Source of the DNA: a virus
Direction: 5' to 3' (one strand)
Virus record (IMG/VR): IMGVR_UViG_3300020193_001932
Location: 1 to 30,905 of that record
DNA length: 30,905 nucleotides
The position numbers and the translations under genes were made by a program. The first letter of the stretch is position 1; each line of letters starts with the position of its first letter. The notes under the pieces are model-generated. The model did not search any database, was not told the origin of the DNA, and saw nothing but the letters and a program-made list of their open reading frames with translations. Below are positions 5,886 to 30,679 of this stretch, piece by piece.

Positions 5886-6620
5886 ATGGCATTACCAAAG
5901 ATAGATGTACCGATATATGAGACGGTGTTGCCGTCTGGCACACGCGTACAATATCGTTCATTTCTAGTCAAAGAAGAAAAGTTGTTTTTGATGGCTGCAC
6001 ACTCAGATGATTCAGAAACAATTATCTCAAATATTAAACAAGTCTTATCTAATTGTCTTATTAGTGGTCCGACGATTGATGAATTACCTATTTTTGATAT
6101 AGAATATTTGTTATTGCAAATTCGGGCACGATCTATTGGAGAAATAATCAATCTTCGTTATAAGTGTAACGCAACAATCACTAAAGATGATGGTACACAG
6201 GCAACATGTGGAACCAAATCCGATTATGAGATCAATCTTGTTAATTTTACTCCAACAACATTTCCCGATCACACAAAAACAATTATGTTGACAAACACAA
6301 TTGGAGTGGTGATGCAGTATCCTTTGTTTTCAAAATTTTCCAAGGCTTTGATTGAAAACTTCACTGCGGATGATGCCATTGATATTATTCTTAGTTGTAT
6401 TGAAAGTGTGTTTGATGAGCAAAGTGTGCATTATATTAAAGACATTTCTAAACAGGAATTATTAGAGTTTATTGAATCATTGTCTCCACAACAACTTAAA
6501 AAACTTGATCATTTCTTTAATACATTACCAAAAAATACTTTGACTGTTAATTTTGTCTGCCCATCGTGTAAACATCAGGAAATTATTGAGGCTAAGGGAA
6601 TTGAAAGTTTTTTCGTCTAA
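5886..6620 (+). CDS. 26: Baseplate hub subunit/assembly protein gp26-like
   Basis: 244 aa. The N-terminus (PIYETVLPSGTRVQYRSFLV, KEEKLFLMAA) and the following LPIFDIEYLLLQIRARSIGE match the T4 baseplate gp26 family. Four cysteines in two places, C94/C108 and C225/C228 (FVCPSCKH), could form one zinc site. The start follows GAGGTG at good distance. The frame ends with Phe-Phe-Val-stop inside a T TTT TTC heptamer, and the downstream ORF lies in the -1 frame, so a fraction of ribosomes probably makes a 305-aa fusion. Its place before the tape measure fits a hub assembly role. Confidence 0.83.
   Translation: MALPKIDVPIYETVLPSGTRVQYRSFLVKEEKLFLMAAHSDDSETIISNIKQVLSNCLISGPTIDELPIFDIEYLLLQIRARSIGEIINLRYKCNATITKDDGTQATCGTKSDYEINLVNFTPTTFPDHTKTIMLTNTIGVVMQYPLFSKFSKALIENFTADDAIDIILSCIESVFDEQSVHYIKDISKQELLEFIESLSPQQLKKLDHFFNTLPKNTLTVNFVCPSCKHQEIIEAKGIESFFV
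6594..6614 (+). promoter_or_regulatory. Candidate programmed -1 frameshift site at end of gp26
   Basis: The heptamer T TTT TTC (6608-6614) is in the correct zero-frame phase for -1 slippage and lies three codons before the gp26 stop at 6618-6620. AAGGGA (6594-6599) lies 8 nt upstream of the heptamer, the position at which a Shine-Dalgarno-like sequence stimulates -1 frameshifting in E. coli dnaX. A weak downstream hairpin is possible (GAAAA/TTTTC at about 6642-6654). The -1 frame stays open from here to the stop at 6800. Confidence 0.65.
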
Positions 6621-6805: not shown

Positions 6806-8716
6806 ATGCCAATAGAAAAACCAACAACTGTCAAGTTTGATGCTGACACTAGAAAAGAAGTGTTATCTGCGCTGGGTGGCATCAAGAAAACACTTGAGGA
6901 ATCCAATAAATCTGAAAAACCCGAAACAGTATCAGACAAGATAGCAACAAAGTTGGCAGAAGGAAAGGGTATATTTTCTTCTTTGAAAGAATCGTTAGTA
7001 GAACGCGGTAAAGAAAAAACAGAATCTTTCAAAAAAATGCTTGATCCTGTGAATATCATCAAATCCATGACAGGAGACAGTAAGTTAGCTGGTGTGTTGA
7101 CTGCGAAAGCTTTGGGACGATCAGAAGAAGAGATTAGAAAAGAAGCTGGATTAGAACCAACCACACCGGACTCACCAGAAGATATCACCGAGAATCCTAA
7201 AGAAATTGGTGGAGTTAATGATTTATTAAAAACACTTAATGTAATTGCAGTTCGTGTTGATCAGATTGCTAACTCCATGGGGGCAACACCAAAAGTAACT
7301 TCAGAAGGTCGTTTATATGAAAAAACCGAAAAAGGAGCAAAATTTCTAACAAAAGACGACGCTAACCAAGAAACGGCAATACTCAATACACTCTTAGATA
7401 TCAAAAAGAGTCAAGAAGAAAGTGTTTCACTAGAAAAAGAAATTGTTGATGCAGAAACCAGTCAAGATAAAATCTTAAAAGAAAATGCAAAGCTGGCTGA
7501 AGAAGCAAATGACGCTGCTCGTGAAGCTGCTCGTGAAGCTGGCAAGAAAGCTGGTGGAAAATCTCCATCATTAATGAAAGGCAAAAATAAAGAAGATCAA
7601 AAAGATGAAAAAGATCAACCTGAAGATCAATCTGGATTTGGTGGTATGTTATCTAGTGTATTGGGTATCATTGGTGGCGCCAAAACAATTGGGGGAACTT
7701 TTAAAAAAGGAATTGGCGCCGCGAAATCTATAGGAGGAAGTATACTCAAAAACGTTGGTCTCAAAAAAATTGGTAAAATTGGTAAAATTGGTGCAATTGG
7801 TGCTGGAATTGCTGGAGCAGCTGCAATGCCTTGGACAAAGATAGCAGAAACCAAAGTTGCTGCTGATGGGGCTAAAGCCGTAGCAAAGACTGCAGGTACA
7901 AAGGTTGTGGCTGAGGGTGCCGAAGCTGCTGCAAAGACTGCAACAAAAGAGGGACTCAAATCAAAAATTGCTAAGATTATCGCTAAAAAAGTGCCAAAAG
8001 CATTGCTTGGTGCTGTGGGGAAATCTGTGCCTCTTCTTGGAGCCGCAATAGGATTGGGAATGGCAGTGGGTCGTTTGGTTAAAGGTGATTGGGTCGGTGC
8101 TGGTCTTGAAGCTGTATCTGGACTTGGATCAGCTGCAACAGCCATTCCTGCTACAGTAGCATCACTCGCTCGCGATGTATATACAGAAGCATATGAAATA
8201 GAACCAGAAAAAGACCCCTCAGCTGGACAAAGAATGCCAGAACTAACACAAATGGTGCAAAGTGCAGCTACAGATTTTCTTCAGAATAAAGGTGAAAGTG
8301 CTCCCGAACCAAGTTCACCCGAACCAAGTTCACCCGAACCAAGTTCACCCGAACCAAGTGCTCCCGAACCAAGTGCTCCTAAACCAAGTTCACCTACTGG
8401 GGAACCAACATATCCCACATCTACATCTCCCACAACAGATATTAATGCATATGAACCAGTCAAACAAACTGATGGAGCAAAAATAGATCCTGAACCCATC
8501 AAACGAACTGATGGCACAAAAATGGATAGCGTATCTCGTGAGAATGAAAGATCAAAAGAAGAGAAGAAAAGTAATGCTAATGTTGTAAATGCACCGATAA
8601 CAAACATTAACAACAAAGGAGCGACGAATAATAATATTATTACAGGTATGCCCAGCTCTCGTACAACAGAATCAAGTTGGATAGCATCAAGAAATAAAAA
8701 CTACGTTCCCATATAA
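6806..8716 (+). CDS. Probable tail tape measure / large tail structural protein
   Basis: 636 aa. Residues 1-270 are highly charged and helical, with coiled-coil character. Residues about 275-460 are Gly/Ala-rich and hydrophobic (for example GKIGAIGAGIAGAAAMPW), as in tape measure proteins that cross the host membrane. A Pro/Ser/Glu tract at about 500-529 comes from six 15-bp DNA repeats. The end is Asn-rich (ITNINNKGATNNNIITG) and ends in a TESSW-containing tail, a pattern I know from phage structural proteins. The place after gp26 and the size (T4 gp29 is 590 aa) fit a tape measure, but I see no specific gp29 motif. It is the last gene of the plus-strand block, convergent with gp32. Confidence 0.55.
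   Translation: MPIEKPTTVKFDADTRKEVLSALGGIKKTLEESNKSEKPETVSDKIATKLAEGKGIFSSLKESLVERGKEKTESFKKMLDPVNIIKSMTGDSKLAGVLTAKALGRSEEEIRKEAGLEPTTPDSPEDITENPKEIGGVNDLLKTLNVIAVRVDQIANSMGATPKVTSEGRLYEKTEKGAKFLTKDDANQETAILNTLLDIKKSQEESVSLEKEIVDAETSQDKILKENAKLAEEANDAAREAAREAGKKAGGKSPSLMKGKNKEDQKDEKDQPEDQSGFGGMLSSVLGIIGGAKTIGGTFKKGIGAAKSIGGSILKNVGLKKIGKIGKIGAIGAGIAGAAAMPWTKIAETKVAADGAKAVAKTAGTKVVAEGAEAAAKTATKEGLKSKIAKIIAKKVPKALLGAVGKSVPLLGAAIGLGMAVGRLVKGDWVGAGLEAVSGLGSAATAIPATVASLARDVYTEAYEIEPEKDPSAGQRMPELTQMVQSAATDFLQNKGESAPEPSSPEPSSPEPSSPEPSAPEPSAPKPSSPTGEPTYPTSTSPTTDINAYEPVKQTDGAKIDPEPIKRTDGTKMDSVSRENERSKEEKKSNANVVNAPITNINNKGATNNNIITGMPSSRTTESSWIASRNKNYVPI
8303..8392 (+). repeat. Six tandem 15-bp repeats inside the tape-measure gene
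   Basis: Units CCCGAACCAAGTTCA start at 8303, 8318 and 8333. The variants at 8348 and 8363 end in GCT, and the last at 8378 begins CCTAAA. They encode Pro-Glu-Pro-Ser-(Ser/Ala) repeats, a flexible linker. The near-perfect DNA identity points to recent slippage expansion. Confidence 0.95.
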
Positions 8717-11691: not shown

Positions 11692-12402
11692 TCACTCACT
11701 GTCATCTCCAATAATAGAGTTAAGAGTATGAAATTTTTGAATTCGTCTATATACTTGTACACTATATTTATACTTTGGAAAATGCCAAATCTGTGGAAAT
11801 TCACCCGTTGAGACGCCAATAAGAATGGCGATAGATGGGATCTCCTTTCCAAATCGCTCTTCAGCAAGAAGCGCATAGGTTGTTGCTTGATGAAAATAGT
11901 CTAGAATGCCATCCTCATATTTGGGTTTATTAGATCGTTTGAAATCCAAAATAGTATACTGCCCATCCCACGTACAGATACAATCAGTACGCCCAGCAAC
12001 TTTCAATGCATCACTATACAGTGGCACTTCTGATCCATGAATCGCAGAAACATGACTTTGTAATACTGGTACCATTTGATTTAAGAGCGATTTAATATTA
12101 GGCAACACTTGTGATTGTTGAAAGGGTGTCCATTGATTAGTAATAATTTTTTCTAGAGCGCGATGAAGTCGAGTGCCTTCCCCCGCTGCACGTGAGGTGA
12201 TTGCGTTCGCTTTCGCTTCCCCCACCCGCTCACGCCATTCGCGCAAGCCTTGTTTTTTATCCTCGCTTGAGGTTTTGCCCAACATTGTGGTGACGGATGC
12301 ATACTTATTCCCTTGCGGAGTCGTATACCACCGACCCTGTGGTGTTGTGTCTTCTGTCAATTCGATTGTGTGCCTCCACAGATCTTGCGCAAACATAATC
12401 AT
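11692..12402 (-). CDS. PD-(D/E)XK exonuclease, RecB-like
   Basis: 236 aa. The core is clear: AAGEGTRLHRALE (about 75-88), then AGRTDCICTWDG (about 138-149) followed by YTILDFKRS (about 151-159). These are the Asp and the DxK motifs of RecB-family nucleases, and a helix with FHQATTYALLAEERFG follows, as in the Cas4/RecB group. Such phage exonucleases process DNA ends for recombination and are common in T4-like cyanophages. It lies 16 bases after the P-loop kinase gene and may be cotranscribed with the modification operon. The Shine-Dalgarno sequence is weak; a start at the nearby second Met is possible. Confidence 0.83.
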   Translation of the reverse strand: MIMFAQDLWRHTIELTEDTTPQGRWYTTPQGNKYASVTTMLGKTSSEDKKQGLREWRERVGEAKANAITSRAAGEGTRLHRALEKIITNQWTPFQQSQVLPNIKSLLNQMVPVLQSHVSAIHGSEVPLYSDALKVAGRTDCICTWDGQYTILDFKRSNKPKYEDGILDYFHQATTYALLAEERFGKEIPSIAILIGVSTGEFPQIWHFPKYKYSVQVYRRIQKFHTLNSIIGDDSE

Positions 12403-12418
12403 TCAACCATAAAATATT

Positions 12419-13015
12419 TTATCTCTTGAAATGTCCTTCCAAGAAACGTAACACCTTTTCCTGCTCCTCTAAATTAGTATTATTGAATACTGTAATATAG
12501 GGCATCAGATCAAAATTGGATAATAGGTTACTATATTTTGTTTCACGACCTTTCAAGAACTGCTTAGACTGATCAGATCCTCTATCCTTGTATCGTGCTT
12601 CAAGGACAGTCTTGGGTGCTTTGAGAAATACTATCCGCAAATCGGTATTCGGAAGTGCCATAGCAAACTCTAGGAAGGACTGATTGAAGATTCGATCTCC
12701 TTCGAATAGGATGTTAGATTGACATTCGGATACAAACTCTTGCGCGATGGGTTGAACTGCCATAGAAAGGCGATCTGTTCCCGCAAAGGTTTCTCCCTCT
12801 TCATACTTACCTAGTACAAAGAGATTCAATTCCTTACAATACATTACAGGCAGCGTCTTTTTTGGCACAGCTTTCTCCCAAGTTTTATCTTTCATAAACT
12901 CACGAAGAAGAGTAGTCTTACCTGTTCCTGGACTCCCACCAACGGCAACTAATTTACGCGCCGCAGAAACGGTAATGGTATCTGTACTAGATGCTGTAAT
13001 AGAATTCGCAATCAT
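12419..13015 (-). CDS. P-loop kinase, candidate hydroxymethyl-base DNA kinase
   Basis: 198 aa. Walker A GGSPGTGKTT lies at residues 26-35. NILFEGDRIFNQSFLEFAMA (about 105-124) fits the acceptor/Walker B region, and LRIVFLKAP leads into an Arg-rich lid (ARYKDRGSDQSKQFLKGRET). The fold is that of small nucleotide/sugar kinases. The ATG overlaps the stop of the aGPT-PPlase-like gene (ATGA), so they are co-translated. Established context: phages with hypermodified thymidine pair a P-loop 5-hydroxymethyl-deoxyuridine DNA kinase with an aGPT-PPlase-family transferase. I infer that this kinase phosphorylates the hydroxymethyl group in DNA. A free nucleotide kinase is the alternative. Confidence 0.72.
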   Translation of the reverse strand: MIANSITASSTDTITVSAARKLVAVGGSPGTGKTTLLREFMKDKTWEKAVPKKTLPVMYCKELNLFVLGKYEEGETFAGTDRLSMAVQPIAQEFVSECQSNILFEGDRIFNQSFLEFAMALPNTDLRIVFLKAPKTVLEARYKDRGSDQSKQFLKGRETKYSNLLSNFDLMPYITVFNNTNLEEQEKVLRFLEGHFKR

Positions 13016-14034
13016 ACAAAGTGCTCCAACAAGCCCTCAGACACAGGTCTTTCATCATCAAACATCCAGTCTAAGTTTTCAATCTTACCAGTCCTCAAGA
13101 AAGAACTGAATCTATTTTTATTAATACCTCTTCTATGATCTAGTTTCTGATCAATTGTCTCGTTTCTTGACTGCCATAGAACATTCCAATCAATACCATA
13201 CCACCCATCTTTCTCAGCTTTGGTAATCTCTGCAGCTTGACGATCTAGATAGTACCCAAGATAACGTCCATGATGTTCACGGAAAATCTTCTTGAAAGAA
13301 CACAGGCAAGTCTCCATGGTAAAGAAGTCCACCTGACTTGCTAGTTTGGGGAATCTTTCTTTCATTTCCAGTAAGATTTCGGCAGCGTGTCTTTCAAGAT
13401 TTTGGTACTGTACAGCAGTGAGTTTTCTGTCCACATCATCATATTTGCCGAGAGTATAAAGCAACCCATTACGATGAGAGCGGGAACCATTATAATCGCA
13501 CAACATAAGAGAAGTGGGATTGATCCGAATACTAGCGGTGTGCTTAAGATGCTGAAGATAAAACCAAGTATTGTAACGACCAAACTTATAGAGACTCCCT
13601 TTAACGCCACTCCATAATTTATCAAAGCTGGTTTCCTCTGATCCTCCATAATAACTCTCTATCGCTTCACGTTGTGTTCGATTGCCGACAAATTTCTGAT
13701 ACGATTCAAACATAGCCGGGAGATGACCCTTGTTCCATTTCGTGTCAGTTTGGTAACGAAGACGTTTGTAATTAGTAGCATTCCATTGCTTCATACGATC
13801 TACTGTTGCCAACTCACAGTCAGGAAACTCATTCATCAAAACCCAAGCAGTTGATAGTTGATACGTGTTGCCATAAAGCCAACACAACCAAAGACGTTGC
13901 TCATCGTTATGTTCAAATCGTGTGTTGAGATAGTTCGTGACCCACACCGCTGGATCGCAGTCATCATACTTCAACGACCATGCATACCAGCGAATGAACG
14001 CCTCTCTATTATTTTGTTTCTGTCTATAATCCAT
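13012..14034 (-). CDS. Alpha-glutamyl/putrescinyl thymine pyrophosphorylase-like DNA base transferase
   Basis: 340 aa. I recognise the aGPT-PPlase family from residues 45-72 (EQRLWLCWLYGNTYQL, then STAWVLMNEFPD), and 94-106 (YQTDTKWNKGHLP), with an all-helical remainder ending in a basic segment (LDHRRGINKNRF). Family knowledge: members act in phage hypermodified thymidine synthesis, replacing a (pyro)phosphate on 5-hydroxymethyluracil in DNA with an amino acid or polyamine. The ATG overlaps the stop of the HNH/ParB-like gene by 11 bases, and its own stop overlaps the kinase start, giving kinase and transferase from one mRNA. The clade cannot be fixed by eye, so the amino substrate is unknown. 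Confidence 0.8.
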   Translation of the reverse strand: MDYRQKQNNREAFIRWYAWSLKYDDCDPAVWVTNYLNTRFEHNDEQRLWLCWLYGNTYQLSTAWVLMNEFPDCELATVDRMKQWNATNYKRLRYQTDTKWNKGHLPAMFESYQKFVGNRTQREAIESYYGGSEETSFDKLWSGVKGSLYKFGRYNTWFYLQHLKHTASIRINPTSLMLCDYNGSRSHRNGLLYTLGKYDDVDRKLTAVQYQNLERHAAEILLEMKERFPKLASQVDFFTMETCLCSFKKIFREHHGRYLGYYLDRQAAEITKAEKDGWYGIDWNVLWQSRNETIDQKLDHRRGINKNRFSSFLRTGKIENLDWMFDDERPVSEGLLEHFV

Positions 14035-15481
14035 TTTCCCAAAATTTATCGTACTTCTTCACCATCAATGATTGCGCCTCTGTTTTTGCGTTTAGTGCAT
14101 TTGAATGTTTAATTTCTGCAATCATAGGTACAGCAGTAACATCAAAAATAATATCCTCATTCATTACTTCACCAGCAAGGTACTTATCGAAACAATACGC
14201 AATCCATCCACAGTACATCCTTCTATCTTGAATATTTCTAGTCGTTTGAGTGGGACCATCTGATAAAATCGCTCTCGTTTGCAGGTTAGTGCGGGGGTTT
14301 ACCTTTTTCGAGATATCAGCAGTTGTTTGGAGTTCATCCACCATTATTAAAAGATTATTTAATTCTGGTTCATCAAAATCATTGTGAATACGATACCATG
14401 GAGCATACTGCCCACCGGTAATATGATTAATTAAAAATTTAATACCTCTAAACATTTTATCATAGATTTTATCATCTTTATATTTCATCATATACTTAAT
14501 AAACATTCCAATTAATGGCGAAGTCAATTGTTTTGGTATATACGTATGGGGGAAAAGCTTACCAAGAACGACCAACTCTTCAATGATATAATTCAATTTC
14601 TCGCTTGTCTGTGCTGCACGTTCGGCTTCGTTTCGACCCCACTCAAGAGTTACGCATTCACTGTCACCTGGATGTACATAGTTATCCAATGCAACTACTG
14701 CTATATCATAAACACTTTCACCCTTCTTCCATTTTAAGGGGAGACGATGCGCATAACCTTTGGCGCGCATATATCCGCTCAATTTCTCTGCAAAAGTTTC
14801 AGCTGTTATTTTTGAATCAATAGAGTGATATAGTTGTTCTGCGTGTTTTTCATCATCCACTTTAATAAAGATTCCCAAAATGTTCTTGGGCACTTCATAG
14901 TCTGGAAATTGAAGGTTATTTGCCCAAATGTATGATCGCGTATTACCATCTCCACGGTAGAATTGCCCATCAGGGAAAAGGAAAAACATCATCACTTTAT
15001 GGGTATCGAGAGGAACTCTACCCATAGCATTTCTGGTTTTCGAGTAACGGAGTGTTTCATCACGTTGGCACCATACTGGTGGTATCTTGACGGCTACATT
15101 TGTGGGAATCATACACGATGTAATTGTATCGTTTTTAAGACTTTCTCTTATATTATCGAATAAAGAGTCTGCGGATTCATTTTGAGATTGTAGAGCAATA
15201 GGTGTGACGATCAACCCATCATCCCGCCATTTATTGATAAGTTTTAGACCTTGGGGTGTTAGACTTGCAGACTTTGAACGATTCTCGTCTCTAGGTATCC
15301 AATCTAAATTTTCCGGCAATGAAATAATCTCCCATGGGAAATTATGCTCATATCCATAATTAATTGGAACAATATGATCAAGTTCAAGATTCTCAAGATT
15401 TTCGGGTTTTGGACGACTTTTTTTCATATCATTCGCAGCTTTACGACATTTCTCAATATATACAGACCGTTTCATAATCAT
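14024..15481 (-). CDS. HNH endonuclease / ParB-like domain fusion
   Basis: 485 aa from MIMKRSVYIEK, chosen because AAGGAGAATCCA directly precedes this ATG. A second identical AAGGAG-ATG lies 63 bases further up (15544), giving an in-frame 21-residue extension. The N-terminus has an HNH motif: LELDHIVPINYG (D35 H36), SLPENLDWI (N58) and RDENRSK (N67). A ParB/sulfiredoxin-like segment follows, with FYRGDGNTRSYIW (GDGNTR about 177-182). The remaining 300 residues are helical and unfamiliar. ParB-like and HNH domains often accompany phage DNA modification genes. It heads operon 2 and its stop overlaps the next start by 11 bases. Possible roles are reading modification status, cutting unmodified DNA, or an NTP-using ParB-type activity; all are inference. 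Confidence 0.7.
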   Translation of the reverse strand: MIMKRSVYIEKCRKAANDMKKSRPKPENLENLELDHIVPINYGYEHNFPWEIISLPENLDWIPRDENRSKSASLTPQGLKLINKWRDDGLIVTPIALQSQNESADSLFDNIRESLKNDTITSCMIPTNVAVKIPPVWCQRDETLRYSKTRNAMGRVPLDTHKVMMFFLFPDGQFYRGDGNTRSYIWANNLQFPDYEVPKNILGIFIKVDDEKHAEQLYHSIDSKITAETFAEKLSGYMRAKGYAHRLPLKWKKGESVYDIAVVALDNYVHPGDSECVTLEWGRNEAERAAQTSEKLNYIIEELVVLGKLFPHTYIPKQLTSPLIGMFIKYMMKYKDDKIYDKMFRGIKFLINHITGGQYAPWYRIHNDFDEPELNNLLIMVDELQTTADISKKVNPRTNLQTRAILSDGPTQTTRNIQDRRMYCGWIAYCFDKYLAGEVMNEDIIFDVTAVPMIAEIKHSNALNAKTEAQSLMVKKYDKFWENGL

Positions 15482-15587
15482 TGGATTCTCCTTTTTTGGT
15501 TTCCACATTTCTTCTGTCTCCCTCATACTCTTCGCATTAGTCATTGGATTCTCCTTTTTTGGTTTCCGCATCTCTTCTGTCTCCCTC
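15479..15587 (-). repeat. 63-bp-period tandem duplication carrying ribosome binding site and start
   Basis: Copies at 15479-15524 and 15542-15587 are nearly identical over 46 bp. Each contains, on the minus strand, AAGGAGAATCCAATG. The period is a multiple of three, so both starts are in the same frame and the duplication adds KPKKENPM-type repeats to the longer product. Confidence 0.92.
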
Positions 15588-15611
15588 TTCCCCTTTTCAA
15601 GGATGGCTATA

Positions 15612-15640
15612 TTATGGGCTAGTCCAAGCTAGAAGTCAAC
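15612..15640 (-). promoter_or_regulatory. Sigma70-type promoter for operon 2 (HNH/ParB, transferase, kinase)
   Basis: Minus strand: -35 TTGACT (15635-15640), 17-bp spacer, -10 CATAAT (15612-15617). The spacer contains an inverted repeat CTAG-CTTGGA-CTAG, a possible operator. It lies just after the GNAT gene and makes operon 2 independent of operon 1. Confidence 0.7.
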
Positions 15641-15652
15641 AGAAATCTTGCT

Positions 15653-16234
15653 TTATAACCCGTTGATATCATAAGGAATTTTTGACTCAACCCCATCTAA
15701 ATTGACCCCTATTTGGCTGTTTGCAAGCTCATAGAGGGTCGTACAGCCTCCCTTACCTTTTCGGTTGATCGCTTTATAAATAACCGTATCGAAATAATCG
15801 TAGTCACCCTCTCCGTAGGTATCTCCCCCGATCCTGAAAATGGATAGCTGGCATCCACTTTTTTGTGCCCCCCAAAACTTGAACCCAAGACGCTCATAGA
15901 AACCCACGGCATTCTTCTCAGAGGAAACCCTGAAGTAAGTGGCCCCAGTCGCTCTCGCTCGTTTTAACGAATCTTCGCAGAGGATTCTGGCAAAACCTTT
16001 ACCTCTATGTTTTGCAAACGTATGTAAGAGTTGTAAGTTTGCAACGTGGGGTTTGGTCTTTGATAGTGTGGTAATAATTGCAGCAGTCAACTCATCGCCA
16101 TCGAATGCGCCAATACAAAACTCCCATTGCCTTAGCATGTCTGCTTTGGCAACGAAAGTCTTAGCAAAGTTGTCTTCTTTATTTGTTGAGATGGCTGCGA
16201 TAAACTCATCTCTGGTACACTTACACAACCTCAT
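15653..16234 (-). CDS. GNAT-family N-acetyltransferase
   Basis: 193 aa from MRLCKCTRDEF; a longer frame to 16291 overlaps the amidoligase more and has no family support. The GNAT acetyl-CoA site is clear: VANLQLLHTFAKHRGKGF, where HRGKGFARIL is motif A, followed by TYFRVSSEKNAVGFYERLGF, the usual beta5/helix end. The last 60 residues extend beyond a typical GNAT. The start lies inside the amidoligase gene (14-base overlap), so it is co-translated with the dioxygenase/amidotransferase/amidoligase series. It is inferred to acylate or aminoacylate the amino compound attached to the base. GNAT-fold ligases are described with amidoligases in comparative genomics (work of Iyer, Aravind and colleagues). 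Confidence 0.82.
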   Translation of the reverse strand: MRLCKCTRDEFIAAISTNKEDNFAKTFVAKADMLRQWEFCIGAFDGDELTAAIITTLSKTKPHVANLQLLHTFAKHRGKGFARILCEDSLKRARATGATYFRVSSEKNAVGFYERLGFKFWGAQKSGCQLSIFRIGGDTYGEGDYDYFDTVIYKAINRKGKGGCTTLYELANSQIGVNLDGVESKIPYDINGL

Positions 16235-17093
16235 GGTATTCACGGTGTTTTTTTCCACGGTCTTTATCCCACTTAGTCTTTTCCCACCCAACGTATTCGT
16301 TCAGATTCCAAACGAATGGTGGGAACGTGTAGGTGTCTGCAGCTAGGATTTCCTTGACACTGGGTCCATCATTCAATGCTGCATCAATAAACTTTTCTAC
16401 AAAGCGAAACTGAGCTTCTATTTCCTCGCGCTTTGTGGTTGAACGGAAACAGCGAAACTCGATTGTACCAGTATGCTTCATACAGTAAGTATTGATTGCA
16501 TAACGAAATGGACGACCCATTGATACACCGTCTTTACCTGCAGCATGCAATTTGATAAAGTGTTCAAAGTCTGTTGCCAGATTGATAATATTGTCACACA
16601 TATATTCTGGCATTTTTCGTCCGCCGTCGTACTTGAGATACATCTTAGCGCCTTTGGCTGTCTTCATTTGATCGGTTTCATAGAACCCATAACACGCCTC
16701 AATGGTATCAGTTTGATTAGCTTTAATATATGTAATTAGTTTTTTTAAAGAAGCTACACCACCTTTAAGTCCCGGAACAAATACATGTAAGTGCCCGTGA
16801 TTAACACAAGAAGCAGATGGTTGGTTACCACTCTCAACAAAAAACTGATGCAATTCCATCACACGATCTACTTGTTGTTGCCAAGTAGCAGTTGGCATGG
16901 TGTTGATCTCACCACCCATGTAAGGCTCTTTACCAAGAGGATCGCATGCGACATACTTAAAAGGCTCATGGATGTTTACAATGTCAGTCTCTGCATACTC
17001 CCACTTACCAAGATTCTCTGGTGGAGTCAGGCGACGATCTATATCACCCCACTCTATTTCCATACCATACGTAAATGTAGATTTATCATACAT
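16221..17093 (-). CDS. Amidoligase (glutamine-synthetase-like COOH-NH2 ligase)
   Basis: 290 aa from MYDKSTFTYGMEIEW, chosen because this ATG overlaps the amidotransferase stop. Family motifs: YGMEIEWGD (metal-binding Glu12 and Glu14), GGEINTMP (about 62), CVNHGHLHVFVPGL (about 97-110) and HTGTIEFRCFRST (about 205-217). These correspond to the conserved strands of the amidoligase_2 family, which forms amide bonds between carboxylates and amines using ATP. It lies between a class-II glutamine amidotransferase (ammonia source) and a GNAT, the trio predicted in the literature to build peptide-like or amide products. Next to a TET/JBP dioxygenase it probably edits an adduct on DNA. Modification of a surface or protein substrate is the alternative. 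Confidence 0.82.
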   Translation of the reverse strand: MYDKSTFTYGMEIEWGDIDRRLTPPENLGKWEYAETDIVNIHEPFKYVACDPLGKEPYMGGEINTMPTATWQQQVDRVMELHQFFVESGNQPSASCVNHGHLHVFVPGLKGGVASLKKLITYIKANQTDTIEACYGFYETDQMKTAKGAKMYLKYDGGRKMPEYMCDNIINLATDFEHFIKLHAAGKDGVSMGRPFRYAINTYCMKHTGTIEFRCFRSTTKREEIEAQFRFVEKFIDAALNDGPSVKEILAADTYTFPPFVWNLNEYVGWEKTKWDKDRGKKHREYHEVV

Positions 17094-17760
17094 GCTGTAA
17101 ATCTTTCCTATCAGTGGCAACAACATCAACAGTCATTACCATATTCTCACCAAATGTAATGTAGTTATTCATTGGGACTTTAACCGCAGGAATTCTGACA
17201 CCTGCTCGTTTAGGAATATCTGCAGTAGAAGTAATTAAAACTCCATTCACTAAAGAAGTCAAATATAAAGGTCGTTTACCATTACGATAGGCGACAAGTT
17301 CTTTGGGTCGTGAAGTCAACTCACACACAGCCATGGACATATGACTAAATTCTGTAAGTGGTTCGTTGGAGTGTTGAATTAATTCACTATCGTTTTTAGT
17401 TTCACAATCATACCCGTAAAGCTCTTTCCACTTCTCTGGGAGTTCTTGAGTAATCACACCATTGTGAACAATGGCGTGACCATTGTTACCAATAGGTTGA
17501 TTGTATTGTAAATCAGATGTTGAATAGCGGCAATGCCCAATTAAATACAAGTTACCATCTTCATTGACATATGAGGAGAAGTCATATGGAAACTCATCAG
17601 CTGGAACAGGTTTCTTAATAATATGAACATCATCATTCTTAATGTACGCCACTCCAGTTGCATGTAGACCTCGAATCTTAGACTCGTGAAATACACGATG
17701 TAGCAGTAATAGATCCTCTTTCGAGGGGGCAAGAAGGATTGCTCCTACAATGGCGCACAT
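17086..17760 (-). CDS. Class-II glutamine amidotransferase (Ntn hydrolase)
   Basis: 224 aa. It begins Met-Cys-Ala-Ile-Val-Gly; removal of Met exposes the nucleophile Cys2, as in GATase type 2 enzymes. Other family motifs: IRGLHATGVAYI (about 29-40), GHCRYST (R78), and GNNGHAIVHNGVI (N100, G101), the oxyanion and glutamine-binding loops of the PurF/GlmS/AsnB domain. Only the glutaminase domain is present, so ammonia must be passed to a partner, most simply the amidoligase whose start overlaps by eight bases. The ATG overlaps the dioxygenase stop (TAATG). The reaction is glutamine hydrolysis to glutamate plus NH3. Confidence 0.9.
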   Translation of the reverse strand: MCAIVGAILLAPSKEDLLLLHRVFHESKIRGLHATGVAYIKNDDVHIIKKPVPADEFPYDFSSYVNEDGNLYLIGHCRYSTSDLQYNQPIGNNGHAIVHNGVITQELPEKWKELYGYDCETKNDSELIQHSNEPLTEFSHMSMAVCELTSRPKELVAYRNGKRPLYLTSLVNGVLITSTADIPKRAGVRIPAVKVPMNNYITFGENMVMTVDVVATDRKDLQHV

Positions 17761-19175
17761 TATCTAAAGAATCCCTCAAGTGATTGCTGTCCCTTTGCAT
17801 CAGGATGATGCTTTAACAATTGAGCACAACCAAGTTCTCTCTCACAATAGTCATACCATTCTTGACTTGACCACATTCCCTCCGAGACGCCATTCCACAA
17901 ATACCGTTGCTGTGGGTGTGACTTATCTAGCCGCCGCGATTCAACAAACTTATATCGCGCAGTCTCATATTCCCAACTCCCCAATTCCAACATCTTTTCG
18001 CGGAAATAACAGACCAGCGAAATCCGCTCCATCTCATCCAAGGTTTTTCCTTTGGGTGGAAGAATTTCGGTGTTGCCGTGAATCCCTTGATGATTGTTGA
18101 CCAACAAAAGATCACCAGGGCGAATATTGATGGCCACACGAAACTCTGGGAGCACGAGATACCCACCAGTCCACTTTTTGTCTTTTGCCACAACGGTCAA
18201 ATTGGAAAAGCCTTCTCCCAAATCTCCTGCATCACGATGTGATGCGGTGCGGAAATTCTTGTTGACGGTGATTGTGGTAAAGGGTGTCTGCGCACCAGCA
18301 ACTCGAAATCGTTCATCCAACCGATTGGCACACTTCTCTTGCGCGGCATAGCGAACAGGAAGCAATTGCTTGAACTCATGTGCGAGCTTGACCATAAATG
18401 GGTAACAGAGTTCATAGAGATCACGATGGTTCTCGGTGTATGAGGTAGCGCGACCATAGGGAATGCGAGGATAGCGGTCAAAGAATCCAGCGATACCAGA
18501 CAAGACGCCATTAGCATAAGTGGTATTTGAGATGCAGGTTTTCTTCCAGAGTTCTGCATCCTTCGCAGCTGCAGCAACACTCATCGTTTTCCATTCATCA
18601 ATTTTATCACGAAAAAACGTATCATACTGATACCCTGAGTCGGTCACTTTGGTTCGTAACCAGACCACTCCACGCACAGTCGTCATGGTTTCCTTCTCAT
18701 CAAACTCTGTCAGCAGTCGCGCTAGTTCATCATCGTGATCCAAGAGGATTTGTGGCGGTCGAGTGATAAGATACTCAAGGATCGCATATTGCTGATCGGT
18801 CACCCAATCACGATCACCACATTTATTATTCGTCACCCCTGCAGCAACACCACGATTGAAGGAGGGTTGTGCTGCACCGACCAGACCGTCATAGGCGCCA
18901 TGTTGTTCTTGGGGGGTAAAGACATGCCGACGATACTTGAAAATGATGTTGACTTCGCTGTTGGTGCAGGGACCGCCGCAGGACATGTCCCCACACCCAA
19001 ACGAGGGCGCATAGAAATCACAATCCTCATCAACCAACACATCATAATCCGCGTCAGTCAAAAATTGACCGAGCTTGTCTTCAGCTGCCCTGTCCCAGAA
19101 CCGTGACGTCACCACCGTCACATCATCATCACGCTGTACACAGTACTTCTGTGGATCAAACTGTTTCATCTTCAC
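17760..19175 (-). CDS. TET/JBP-family 2-oxoglutarate/Fe(II) DNA dioxygenase
   Basis: 471 aa. The catalytic core lies at about 295-395. NKNFRTASHRDAGDL contains H313 and D315 of the HxD motif; GFSNLTVV and GGYLVLPEFRVAINIR follow; GDLLLV and HGNTEI supply the distal histidine H366; ERISLVCYF supplies R384 for 2-oxoglutarate. This order and spacing match phage TET/JBP proteins, which hydroxylate the methyl group of thymine (JBP) or 5-methylcytosine (TET) in DNA. The N-terminal 130 residues include a cysteine cluster (C52, C61, C66, C70) that may bind metal, and RDWVTDQQYAILEYL. A helical domain joins it to the core. It is the first gene of operon 1 under a near-perfect promoter. Whether thymine or methylcytosine is the target cannot be read from the motifs. 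Confidence 0.9.
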   Translation of the reverse strand: MKMKQFDPQKYCVQRDDDVTVVTSRFWDRAAEDKLGQFLTDADYDVLVDEDCDFYAPSFGCGDMSCGGPCTNSEVNIIFKYRRHVFTPQEQHGAYDGLVGAAQPSFNRGVAAGVTNNKCGDRDWVTDQQYAILEYLITRPPQILLDHDDELARLLTEFDEKETMTTVRGVVWLRTKVTDSGYQYDTFFRDKIDEWKTMSVAAAAKDAELWKKTCISNTTYANGVLSGIAGFFDRYPRIPYGRATSYTENHRDLYELCYPFMVKLAHEFKQLLPVRYAAQEKCANRLDERFRVAGAQTPFTTITVNKNFRTASHRDAGDLGEGFSNLTVVAKDKKWTGGYLVLPEFRVAINIRPGDLLLVNNHQGIHGNTEILPPKGKTLDEMERISLVCYFREKMLELGSWEYETARYKFVESRRLDKSHPQQRYLWNGVSEGMWSSQEWYDYCERELGCAQLLKHHPDAKGQQSLEGFFR

Positions 19176-19195
19176 CTCATTACCAAATAATTACA

Positions 19196-19224
19196 AGTAT
19201 ATCTAAATTCTCACTACTTGTCAA
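19196..19224 (-). promoter_or_regulatory. Near-consensus sigma70 promoter for the dioxygenase operon
   Basis: Minus strand: -35 TTGACA (19219-19224, perfect), 17-bp spacer, -10 TATACT (19196-19201). The leader to the ATG is about 14 nt with GAGGTGAAG as ribosome binding site. It is the closest match to consensus in the window and suggests strong early expression by the unmodified host polymerase. Confidence 0.82.
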
Positions 19225-19227
19225 CTT

Positions 19228-19938
19228 TTATGCAGCACAATATAGATGTTCTTTACGATACTCATCTTGTGCACACAAAAACTCTTTGACAAATCCAGAT
19301 CGCACAACATCATTGATATCAAAATCAATCTTAGTAACAGAATTTAGTCGTTGAAGAATACTCAAAAAATGATGAATGCCATTTCGTTCCTCTGGACGCC
19401 AAAGGTCTGTTTGTTTCGTATCCCCACAGAAAATCAATCGGCAATTTTGTCCAATGCGCGTTGTCACCGTCGCGAGTTCTCCATATGACAAGTTCTGAAT
19501 TTCATCGATAATCACAATACAATTCTCAAAAGTAATTCCGCGCAAATACGATGTCGTTTGAAAACTCAATTGAAGTTTATTTTTCAAAATTTCATATCCA
19601 TCACCACGGTTCAATAACTGATTACAAATATAACGATAAGGTTCCTCATACACCCAGACTTTTTCTTTAAGGGACCCAGGAAGATACCCCACTTCACGTG
19701 ACGGCACAATCGACCGAATCACAATAACTTGATTGTACTCTGAATCTTTTTTAAGAACCTGACGAAGAGCGAGATAAAACGAAATAAAGGTTTTACCAGT
19801 ACCTGCGTCACCAGATAAAACAAGATGTTGTCCTTCACGCCATGCGTGGTAAGTTTGTTGTTGATGTTCGGTAAGAAATTGAATAGGAGGAAGGATGAGT
19901 GGCTGAGAAGCTTCGTTCAACACCTTTTTCTTGCCCAT
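19228..19938 (-). CDS. phoH: PhoH-like ATPase
   Basis: 236 aa. Walker A GDAGTGKT lies at residues 43-50 in LVLSGDAGTGKTFISF, Walker B at CIVIIDEIQNL (about 139-149), and the sensor segment is LIFCGDTKQTDL. IVIRSIVPSREVGYLPG is characteristic of PhoH proteins. The gene is common in marine and freshwater T4-like phages. The biochemical role is unsettled (ATPase or RNA helicase/nuclease-associated), and phosphate regulation is not implied. GGAGG precedes the ATG but can pair with CTCC upstream. The stop lies just before the -35 of the dioxygenase promoter. Confidence 0.93.
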   Translation of the reverse strand: MGKKKVLNEASQPLILPPIQFLTEHQQQTYHAWREGQHLVLSGDAGTGKTFISFYLALRQVLKKDSEYNQVIVIRSIVPSREVGYLPGSLKEKVWVYEEPYRYICNQLLNRGDGYEILKNKLQLSFQTTSYLRGITFENCIVIIDEIQNLSYGELATVTTRIGQNCRLIFCGDTKQTDLWRPEERNGIHHFLSILQRLNSVTKIDFDINDVVRSGFVKEFLCAQDEYRKEHLYCAA

Positions 19939-29278: not shown

Positions 29279-30679
29279 CTATCTATTCACAGAAAGCTTA
29301 AATGGGCCTCCTTTAGGTGGGCGCGGCCCATCGTACGGCAATAGATCAACTTCAATTTTAAGCTTCATATACCGGATAGTCTCTATTAGATCGTCAATCC
29401 ACTTACCAGTTGTTTCTTCCACCAGCTCACGCTTTGTGGTGTAATGCAAGATAATTGCACCTTGCATATTCTTCTCTTTACGCATGACACGCAGGACAAA
29501 CGCAAGAGGTTTAGCGTTGGCGCATTCCCCCACTTTCGAGACCACAGTTGATATATTGCGCACTCCGTATTTGTTCCACTTATAATCAGCAAAGTACGCA
29601 TCATCATATGTCGTGAGAGGCGCTTGATAGGTGAGTTCTGCTTGAGTTTTCTCAAAATCAGTAACAATAGACTCCAACAGACCATTCAACTGTTGTTTTG
29701 ACCCACACACATAATCAAAGTTCAGATACACTAACTGGCGCGCCCGATCCTTGTGAGCAGGCTTTGAAAGATCGAGCTTCTGAGCAGCCAAGAAGTTATT
29801 GATGTTTCTTTTCAAATCTTCTTTTGAATTCGTGGCACGAACCTCGAATGGCTCGCGATTCATATACAATCCAAATCGCAGAATATTCTGTTCACGAATT
29901 TCTTCGGTTGACCCAAACTCTGATTCATTCAGATACACGACAGGAACTGAGTTCCAACCAGCCGTTTTTCTCGCCGCCTCACGACGGGTATGCCCACTAA
30001 TAACACGCTTTACGTCATCTTTGGACACGAGCACCACGATTGGTTTAAACGTTTCGCGAGCTTCTTTAGGATTTTCCAGAAGACGCTGACGGATTTTTGA
30101 CACCGTGTGGTGATTGAGAATCACTTCGCGAATTTGACAATCGCCATAGGCACACACTTCATGAATTGAGACGTCAACTTCTTTATAGAAGTTTGTTCTC
30201 TCTTCAATATGCTTGGCGATTGTGGTCACAATCGCGTGATTTTCATTGGCTTCAGTGACATCCACACTACCCTGTGGAATGCCTTTCCCGTCACCACGCA
30301 AAAAATCAATAATAACTTGTTTCTCGTGCGTCGTTAATATTGATTCATCGGTCTTATGCGCATTATTTACAGCATTGAAAAACTTGCGACCAAGTTTTTT
30401 ACCGTAATCCCACGCAAACCATTCTGCTGCACGTGCTTTTAATTCTGGCCCAATAAACAAAATCGAACGTTCAAGTCTCCCCCTACTATAACGATCCCAA
30501 AACGCACCGTCTTTACACGACGTAATGTAGGTGAATTTATCGTCTCCAAGCGGAGATTTAAACCCAATGCATAACGTGCCGGTTTCCATATCTTGATACG
30601 CATATACATATGACGCATCTGCATCATAGATATGCATTATATTGTTCTTGTCACTTCCACTGTTCTTACGAGAATCCAT
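29279..30679 (-). CDS. ParB-like domain protein with possible degenerate GIY-YIG N-terminus
   Basis: 466 aa. The ParB/Srx-type core is near 185-275: ILNHHTVSKIRQRLLE, FKPIVVLVSK, and VISGHTRREAARKTAG (S228-R233, the GHTRR nucleotide/phosphate loop), then VPVVYLNESEFGS. The first 100 residues contain YVYAYQDMETGTLCIG (Y24-Y26 and C37-G39 spaced as in GIY-YIG), an Arg-rich helix and E86, so a diverged GIY-YIG nuclease is conceivable. The C-terminal 190 residues are helical and end in a Pro-rich tail (PYDGPRPPKGGPF). AAGAGGT precedes the ATG, and a terminator pair follows. ParB-like proteins without ParA are common near phage DNA modification or nuclease genes; genome segregation is unlikely. 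Confidence 0.78.
   Translation of the reverse strand: MDSRKNSGSDKNNIMHIYDADASYVYAYQDMETGTLCIGFKSPLGDDKFTYITSCKDGAFWDRYSRGRLERSILFIGPELKARAAEWFAWDYGKKLGRKFFNAVNNAHKTDESILTTHEKQVIIDFLRGDGKGIPQGSVDVTEANENHAIVTTIAKHIEERTNFYKEVDVSIHEVCAYGDCQIREVILNHHTVSKIRQRLLENPKEARETFKPIVVLVSKDDVKRVISGHTRREAARKTAGWNSVPVVYLNESEFGSTEEIREQNILRFGLYMNREPFEVRATNSKEDLKRNINNFLAAQKLDLSKPAHKDRARQLVYLNFDYVCGSKQQLNGLLESIVTDFEKTQAELTYQAPLTTYDDAYFADYKWNKYGVRNISTVVSKVGECANAKPLAFVLRVMRKEKNMQGAIILHYTTKRELVEETTGKWIDDLIETIRYMKLKIEVDLLPYDGPRPPKGGPFKLSVNR

Follow-up and report, generated by a model that had tools for sequence, protein, structure and literature searches.

A candidate thymidine hypermodification cassette with amide ligase and glutaminase genes in a T4-like phage sequence

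The IMG/VR virus record IMGVR_UViG_3300020193_001932 (30,905 bases, the whole of which is called the window here) contains an island of seven minus-strand genes (12419-19175) that is probably a thymidine hypermodification cassette, in which a TET/JBP dioxygenase (TET), a P-loop kinase (KIN) and an amino acid:DNA transferase (ADDT) would be followed by finishing through an amide ligase (AMID), a glutaminase (GAT) and a GNAT acyltransferase. From family and fold assignments, conserved gene order and module swapping, which are direct results, we infer all the chemical steps, the substrate base and clamp binding. TET would hydroxylate the thymine methyl group in phage DNA to 5-hydroxymethyl-dU (hmdU), KIN would phosphorylate this base to 5-phosphomethyl-dU, and ADDT would put an amine in place of the phosphate, an amino acid (glycine, for example) being the most likely one. 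AMID, as an ATP-dependent ligase, would then make an amide on the attached group, for which ammonia from GAT is the likely amine; GNAT would acylate the leftover amine, and the predicted end product is a base bulky enough to block restriction enzymes. A C-terminal peptide resembling that of the polymerase may let TET, and in some variants ADDT or the acyltransferase, travel with the gp45 sliding clamp. The proposal in its entirety is put forward tentatively, as somewhat doubtful in all its parts together: a route opened by TET, along which a thymine-linked amino acid in DNA is amidated by a glutamine-synthetase-fold ligase and a glutaminase to give an undescribed nucleoside, with clamp-carried enzymes, in a common freshwater phage lineage that swaps its finishing enzymes.

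TET passes the cut-off of the Pfam family Tet_JBP (E=4.5e-25), its profile reaches human TET2 in the PDB (E=3e-5), and the residues of the HxD...H metal triad (H313, D315 and H366) and R384 are invariant in 18/18 homologs. ADDT belongs to Pfam PF18724, the family that includes aGPT-PPlase2 (E=1.7e-19; 70.9 bits against a gathering score of 26.2). Sequence searches of the PDB with the profiles of ADDT, the HNH-type island protein and the L256-type family of AMID homologs returned nothing useful, and fold comparison was therefore needed. The best structural match of the AlphaFold2 (AF2) model of ADDT (predicted template modelling score, pTM, 0.82) is gp46 of phage PaMx11, a 5-phosphomethyl-dU glycinyltransferase (8z2n, 8z2m), with a Z of 17.1 over ~252 residues, compared with 10.3 for a queuine-salvage enzyme and 8-9.5 for 8-oxoguanine glycosylases; Foldseek gives an E of only 0.04, at a probability of 1.0, for the same pair. 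In the model, ADDT appears to share the glycosylase-like fold of PaMx11 gp46. KIN exceeds the gathering score of Ploopntkinase3 (PF18751; E=2e-7; 31.2 against 27 bits), its Walker A (GSPGTGKT) and EGDR motifs are conserved in homologs, and KIN homologs adjoin TET and ADDT in Gordonia phage Wooper and Caulobacter phage Cr30. Judging from these genes, a source of hmdU, a kinase and an amino acid transferase occur together in the island, and the catalytic residues of the island enzymes are retained across homologs. The initial annotation of this DNA had called the island a DNA hypermodification system, which gene families and anatomy bear out; it had also named the TET/JBP and aGPT-PPlase placements as ones that profile searches could overturn, and both stand. 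Its order of oxidation, phosphorylation, amino displacement and tailoring appears to fit the anatomy of the island.

Thymine is the likely substrate of the cassette, and it is favoured because no C5-cytosine methylase (PF00145) was found in 16 related records and because the ADDT model is closest to a 5-phosphomethyl-dU enzyme. PF00303 was not found in the records G001 and G002 or in Stenotrophomonas phage DLP6 and phage C48C1; these two phages have TET, and the searches detected neither ADDT nor the kinase in them. Methylophilales phage Melnitz-3 (L094:3466-7546) carries in a row an HhaI-like C5-methylase, TET, a GIY/ParB-family protein and a kinase, with no ADDT.

Among the finishing enzymes, GAT passes the cut-off of GATase_6 (E=1.3e-9; 38.6 against 27 bits), and its N-terminal Cys2 nucleophile, HNG and D124 are invariant in the alignment; Cys2 is retained in nearly all variant-A loci and in 69/70 variant-B loci (variants are defined below). 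GNAT matches Acetyltransf_10 (E=5e-11). AMID scores under the 22-bit gathering score of Amidoligase_2 (16.7 bits, E=0.007), and its AF2 model is of modest confidence (pTM 0.74; mean predicted local distance difference test score, pLDDT, 66.7). The model matches YbdK, glutamine synthetase, Dop and PafA at a Z of ~9 and many phage amidoligases in BFVD, with E down to 1.4e-13. The AMID profile aligns with that of the L256-type family at an hhalign E of 3.5e-36 over 264 columns, and L256, a member of that homologous family, reaches 25.4 bits, above the Amidoligase_2 cut-off. The earlier amidoligase call is thus upheld by fold and homologs, although its Pfam score is sub-threshold, and the glutaminase, GNAT and P-loop kinase calls hold with scores above the Pfam cut-offs.

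AMID is also found outside the window lineage. The unannotated record of phage Simon (L085) encodes AMID with ADDT, HMUDK_hel, Nmad5 and a thymidylate-synthase-like gene; this is a putative M6/ViI-like hypermodification cluster containing an amidoligase, and hence a second candidate dU-hypermodification cluster with AMID, in which the source of 5-hydroxymethyluracil (hmU) looks like a thymidylate-synthase homolog. In Vibrio phage 2.275.O (L086), the AMID homolog lies among genes for QueF, QueC, GAT and FolE; in this deazaguanine cluster of unusual make-up, the GAT adjoining QueC may, by analogy, be a split Gat-QueC. Given these two phages, the link of AMID to DNA modification is not limited to the window lineage; IMG/VR searches queried with the Simon and Vibrio AMID sequences found no relatives. 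In two Bacteroidota contigs (L090, L091), AMID homology makes up the N-terminal part of long proteins, whose genes are followed by ParB-like and alanine-dehydrogenase-like genes (both by eye).

A scan of IMG/VR with AMID gave 218 encoding stretches, and a profile survey covered 264 loci, some of which are overlapping pieces of one contig. The order TET-GAT-AMID-GNAT-ADDT-KIN (variant A1) occurs in 83 loci with 60 distinct ADDT sequences, and TET-GAT-X-ADDT-KIN (variant B) in 62 loci, 42 of them distinct, where X is a different GNAT (GNAT') that matches Acetyltransf_1 with E down to 6.5e-6. A further eight loci show TET-GAT-AMID-ADDT-KIN, with a low-molecular-weight phosphatase in place of GNAT, between AMID and ADDT, in the four inspected; the order GAT-AMID-phosphatase-TAGT-ADDT-KIN-TET is present in 2 loci, TAGT being the TET-associated glycosyltransferase (PF20691). 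The cassette is module-swapping, its middle genes being exchanged among relatives. Since the six core genes recur in constant order in 83 loci and dN/dS (nonsynonymous to synonymous substitution ratio) is ~0.02-0.3 for island genes where measurable, a chance cluster of genes is excluded. The initial annotation had suggested a search for the same seven-gene neighbourhood in other phages; the six-gene core was found there, but the slot of the HNH gene is variable. Some variant-B islands contain extra genes, such as one for a 242-aa protein with no Pfam match (L164:6274-7002) and one for a 2-oxoglutarate-Fe(II) oxygenase (PF13759; L136:1413-1985).

That slot also bears on the layout of the island. 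All seven genes run in one direction, as first described, and neighbours overlap by 4, 11, 14, 8 and 1 bases once the starts of AMID (17093) and GNAT (16234) are corrected by comparison with homologs, which agrees with the 1-14 bases given earlier. The division into two operons is not borne out. Where relatives have an empty slot, the GNAT-ADDT junction is an overlap of 28-31 bases or a gap of 3-10 bases, so that the arrangement is at base a single operon into which a gene has been inserted; two independent operons are rejected on this ground. Among distinct variant-A ADDT sequences, the GNAT-ADDT slot is empty in 24, holds GIY-YIG-ParB in 25, HNH in 4, a 192-aa gene in 2 and other contents in 5, and its state changes 23 times on the tree over 62 rows (minimum 10). 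The HNH motif of the window protein (LDHIVP...) is visible by eye, as the previous HNH-ParB call had it, but a ParB domain could not be confirmed (Pfam gives no match; the profile comparison with GIY-YIG-ParB relatives gives a weak match over only 24 columns, probability 1.9%). Because the slot is often empty or occupied by a GIY-YIG-ParB gene, the HNH gene is placed outside the pathway of which it had been taken to be a member. A search of 11 large records gave no full-length GIY-YIG-ParB and a single partial match, of 88 columns in G012, and a ParB nuclease hidden elsewhere in slot-empty relatives is accordingly rejected. The HNH and GIY-YIG-ParB slot genes probably behave as mobile nucleases, and the window has its own homolog of the slot nuclease outside the island (Table 1).

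Of the two sigma70-type promoters proposed earlier, the one upstream of TET is retained. It is the best of its region (TTGACA-17-TATACT), where promoter-like sites in total are at chance level (25 against 22.9 +/- 4.7 expected), and a promoter of at least 11/12 is present upstream of TET in 18/89 sequences of relatives, compared with 0.2% of shuffles, an enrichment that supports it. The second (15639-15611, 10/12), ahead of the mobile HNH gene, is not backed by comparison with relatives.

The window TET ends in QQSLEGFF, which resembles the SLEDFFG end of phage DNA polymerase. With a pattern picked after the sequences were inspected, among homologs that are non-independent and other open reading frames (ORFs) of which many are not genes, a C-terminal [ST]LExFF or close is present in 163/185 TETs, 45/46 variant-B GNATs (QPSLEEFLV) and 13/15 DNA polymerases (SSLEDFFG) plus fragments, and in 13/1,156 other ORFs, namely 8 polymerases or fragments, 2 TET fragments, 2 TAGT-like proteins and 1 D12 adenine methyltransferase. 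The two TAGT-like proteins lie beside TET and look like TAGT by eye, and one of them, tested against Pfam, gave no match. Some ADDTs share the [ST]LExFF end. T4 alpha-glucosyltransferase binds gp45 (PMC13216743), and the peptide suggests that TET, the variant-B GNAT and some ADDTs are tethered to the sliding clamp; such a tail would make it simple to predict which phage enzymes work at the replication fork. The D12-class adenine DNA methyltransferase of phage C48C1 (L270:2969-3853), encoded near DNA polymerase, ends in STLDAFFG. The window baseplate hub protein (5886-6620, plus strand) also has a clamp-like end (GIESFFV), probably by chance, which calls for caution with the motif.

Several observations weigh against the proposed thymidine cassette. 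AMID occurs without a detectable GAT in phage Simon, and two variant-B contigs of 162 and 171 kb have GAT but no AMID, so that GAT-AMID as an obligate pair is ruled out. KIN matches a PHROG annotated as terminase small subunit, and its family is also represented beside the deazaguanine cluster of Mycobacterium phage Rinkes (L096:4892-5506; Ploopntkinase3 E=7e-74) and is thus not confined to hmU systems. Most window-type ADDTs have only a degenerate tail (GLExF), and AMID, GAT and KIN are without the clamp peptide. A host methylase may make up for the missing C5-methylase, and the related records may be incomplete contigs.

Because GAT and AMID are separable, two models for GAT arise, in which it would feed AMID for the amide capping of the amino acid already in place, or feed ADDT so that ammonia is installed first. 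In the latter, which is possible though on the unlikely side, ammonia from GAT would reach ADDT to give 5-aminomethyl-dU, AMID would add a carboxylate (e.g., an amino acid), and GNAT would acylate the product, or GNAT' would do so directly in variant B. Variants A1, A2, B and C all have GAT along with ADDT, but B is without AMID and so points to GAT feeding ADDT; the Simon AMID without GAT is consistent with this order, and a GAT domain has a precedent in nucleobase modification, as Gat-QueC makes dG+ in phage 9g (PMC6884629). However, no GAT was detected in Cr30 and Wooper, two cultured phages that have ADDT and just the core of the cassette, the closest solved transferase uses glycine, and GAT overlaps or directly precedes AMID where both occur in the window lineage, for which reason the feeding of AMID by GAT is slightly favoured.

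It is improbable that cytosine is the substrate, with 5-methylcytosine oxidised by TET and the resulting 5-hydroxymethyl-dC processed by the kinase, ADDT and the tailoring enzymes. A paper by Burke et al. from 2021 reportedly places, in its title, phage TET in C5-cytosine hypermodification, and in Melnitz a C5-methylase adjoins TET, a ParB-family protein and a related kinase, a gene row that hints that cytosine versions of the pathway may exist. Melnitz is without ADDT, however, and the lack of a C5-methylase in the 16 related records and the match of ADDT to a 5-phosphomethyl-dU enzyme speak against cytosine in the window lineage. Less probable still is that GAT, AMID and GNAT are an unrelated module for cell-wall, protein or small-molecule modification sited by accident among DNA-modification genes: amidoligase and GAT do occur in LUZ24-like and OM43 phages with no known DNA role, where cell-wall modification or secondary metabolites have been proposed (PMC10580990, PMC3890496), and the two Bacteroidota contigs have AMID homologs in other contexts, but in the window lineage the three genes sit inside the TET...KIN set, the nearest GenBank AMID homologs belong to DNA-modification clusters (that of Simon and the QueF, QueC and FolE cluster of Vibrio phage 2.275.O), and the variant-B GNAT ends in the polymerase-like clamp peptide.

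Within the preferred thymidine cassette, the core is known (Wooper; M6/ViI/PaMx11), its three opening steps agreeing with established chemistry, and the GAT/AMID finishing module appears new. Phages M6, ViI and PaMx11, studied by Lee et al. in 2018 and 2022, reportedly install amino acids on 5-hmdU by phosphorylation, ADDT-family transfer and tailoring; their hmdU is said to come from a thymidylate-synthase homolog at the nucleotide level and to be tailored by radical S-adenosylmethionine, pyridoxal phosphate and flavin enzymes and by acetyltransferases, whereas in the window, as read from its genes, the source of hmdU would be TET acting on DNA and tailoring would be by amidoligase, glutaminase and GNAT. 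In actinophages, the combination of TET, ADDT, 5-hmU kinase and ParB already carries the annotation of a system for thymidine hypermodification (PMC11955845). Gordonia phage Wooper and Rhodococcus phage Tonitrus, like the window, have TET/JBP, ADDT/aGPT-PPlase2 and Ploopntkinase3 in one operon, and a ParB-like gene is present there; unlike in the window, no GAT was detected in Wooper, amidoligase and GNAT are unannotated, and TET is short and without the clamp peptide. The earlier statement that no described pathway uses exactly this set is therefore correct for the full set, which is unmatched in the accessible literature, but not for these four annotated components. No publication combining amidoligase and GAT with TET/ADDT was found in that literature, and an earlier mention of an amidoligase in such clusters is possible.

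For the amidation step, a precedent is given by CmoY, an amide ligase that acts on a DNA base carboxylate (PMC12783734). The CmoA/CmoX/CmoY system, which produces the glycine amide of 5-carboxymethylcytosine, resembles the window in ATP-dependent amide formation on a DNA base, in a glutaminase domain in some relatives and in ParBc neighbours (PMC12783734). CmoY is, however, an AMP-forming asparagine-synthetase-type ligase acting on cytosine, whereas the window has a glutamine-synthetase-fold ligase and no Cx-SAM (carboxy-S-adenosylmethionine) route. LUZ24-like, OM43 and phiEco32 phages have Amidoligase_2 and GAT of the same superfamilies, with no TET, ADDT or kinase reported; the GATs of these modules are distant from that of the window (~23-31% identity), and that of UFV-P2 is longer (486 aa).

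If the proposal is true, glutamine-synthetase-fold amide ligases and stand-alone glutaminases join the toolbox of DNA base modification, an undescribed nucleoside is to be expected in a phage lineage that has been sampled widely, and enzymes become available with which amide-decorated bases could be written into DNA. The swappable middle genes would permit a matched comparison of which decoration defeats which restriction system. The cassette is carried by a common aquatic group of T4-like phages, in which the modified base would probably hide the DNA from bacterial defences.

Table 1. Features of the window assigned in this analysis
Feature	Position	Strand	Basis
TET/JBP 2-oxoglutarate/Fe(II) dioxygenase (TET), 471 aa	17760..19175	(-)	Pfam Tet_JBP; TET2 profile match; invariant residues
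Stand-alone class-II glutamine amidotransferase (glutaminase) domain (GAT), 224 aa	17086..17760	(-)	Pfam GATase_6; invariant Cys2
Putative COOH-NH2 (amide) ligase, glutamine-synthetase/YbdK fold (AMID), 290 aa	16221..17093	(-)	AF2 model fold and homologs
GNAT acyltransferase, ~193 aa	15653..16234	(-)	Pfam Acetyltransf_10; alignment; 14-bp overlap with AMID
HNH-type protein in variable slot	14024..15571	(-)	HNH motif by eye; PHROG endonuclease VII, E=0.0014
Amino acid:DNA transferase, aGPT-PPlase2 family (ADDT), 340 aa	13012..14034	(-)	Pfam ADDT; AF2 model match to PaMx11 gp46
P-loop nucleotide kinase, candidate 5-hydroxymethyl-dU DNA kinase (KIN), 198 aa	12419..13015	(-)	Pfam Ploopntkinase3; conserved motifs
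Sigma70-type promoter upstream of TET	19196..19224	(-)	TTGACA-17-TATACT, 11/12; enriched in relatives
GIY-YIG-ParB homolog, ~10 kb from island	29279..30679	(-)	Profile match, 422 bits, E=3e-128

The non-island genes of the window are T4-like and include those for a gp2-type end protector, tail tube, baseplate, a gp32-type single-stranded DNA-binding protein (SSB), a gp59-type helicase loader, PhoH, CobS/CobT-like proteins and NifU. The island is flanked by PhoH (19228-19938) on one side and a PD-(D/E)XK exonuclease (11692-12402) on the other. No tRNA or Rfam families were found in the window. Between the baseplate hub and SSB genes lies an ORF of 636 aa (6806-8716, plus strand) without a PHROG match.

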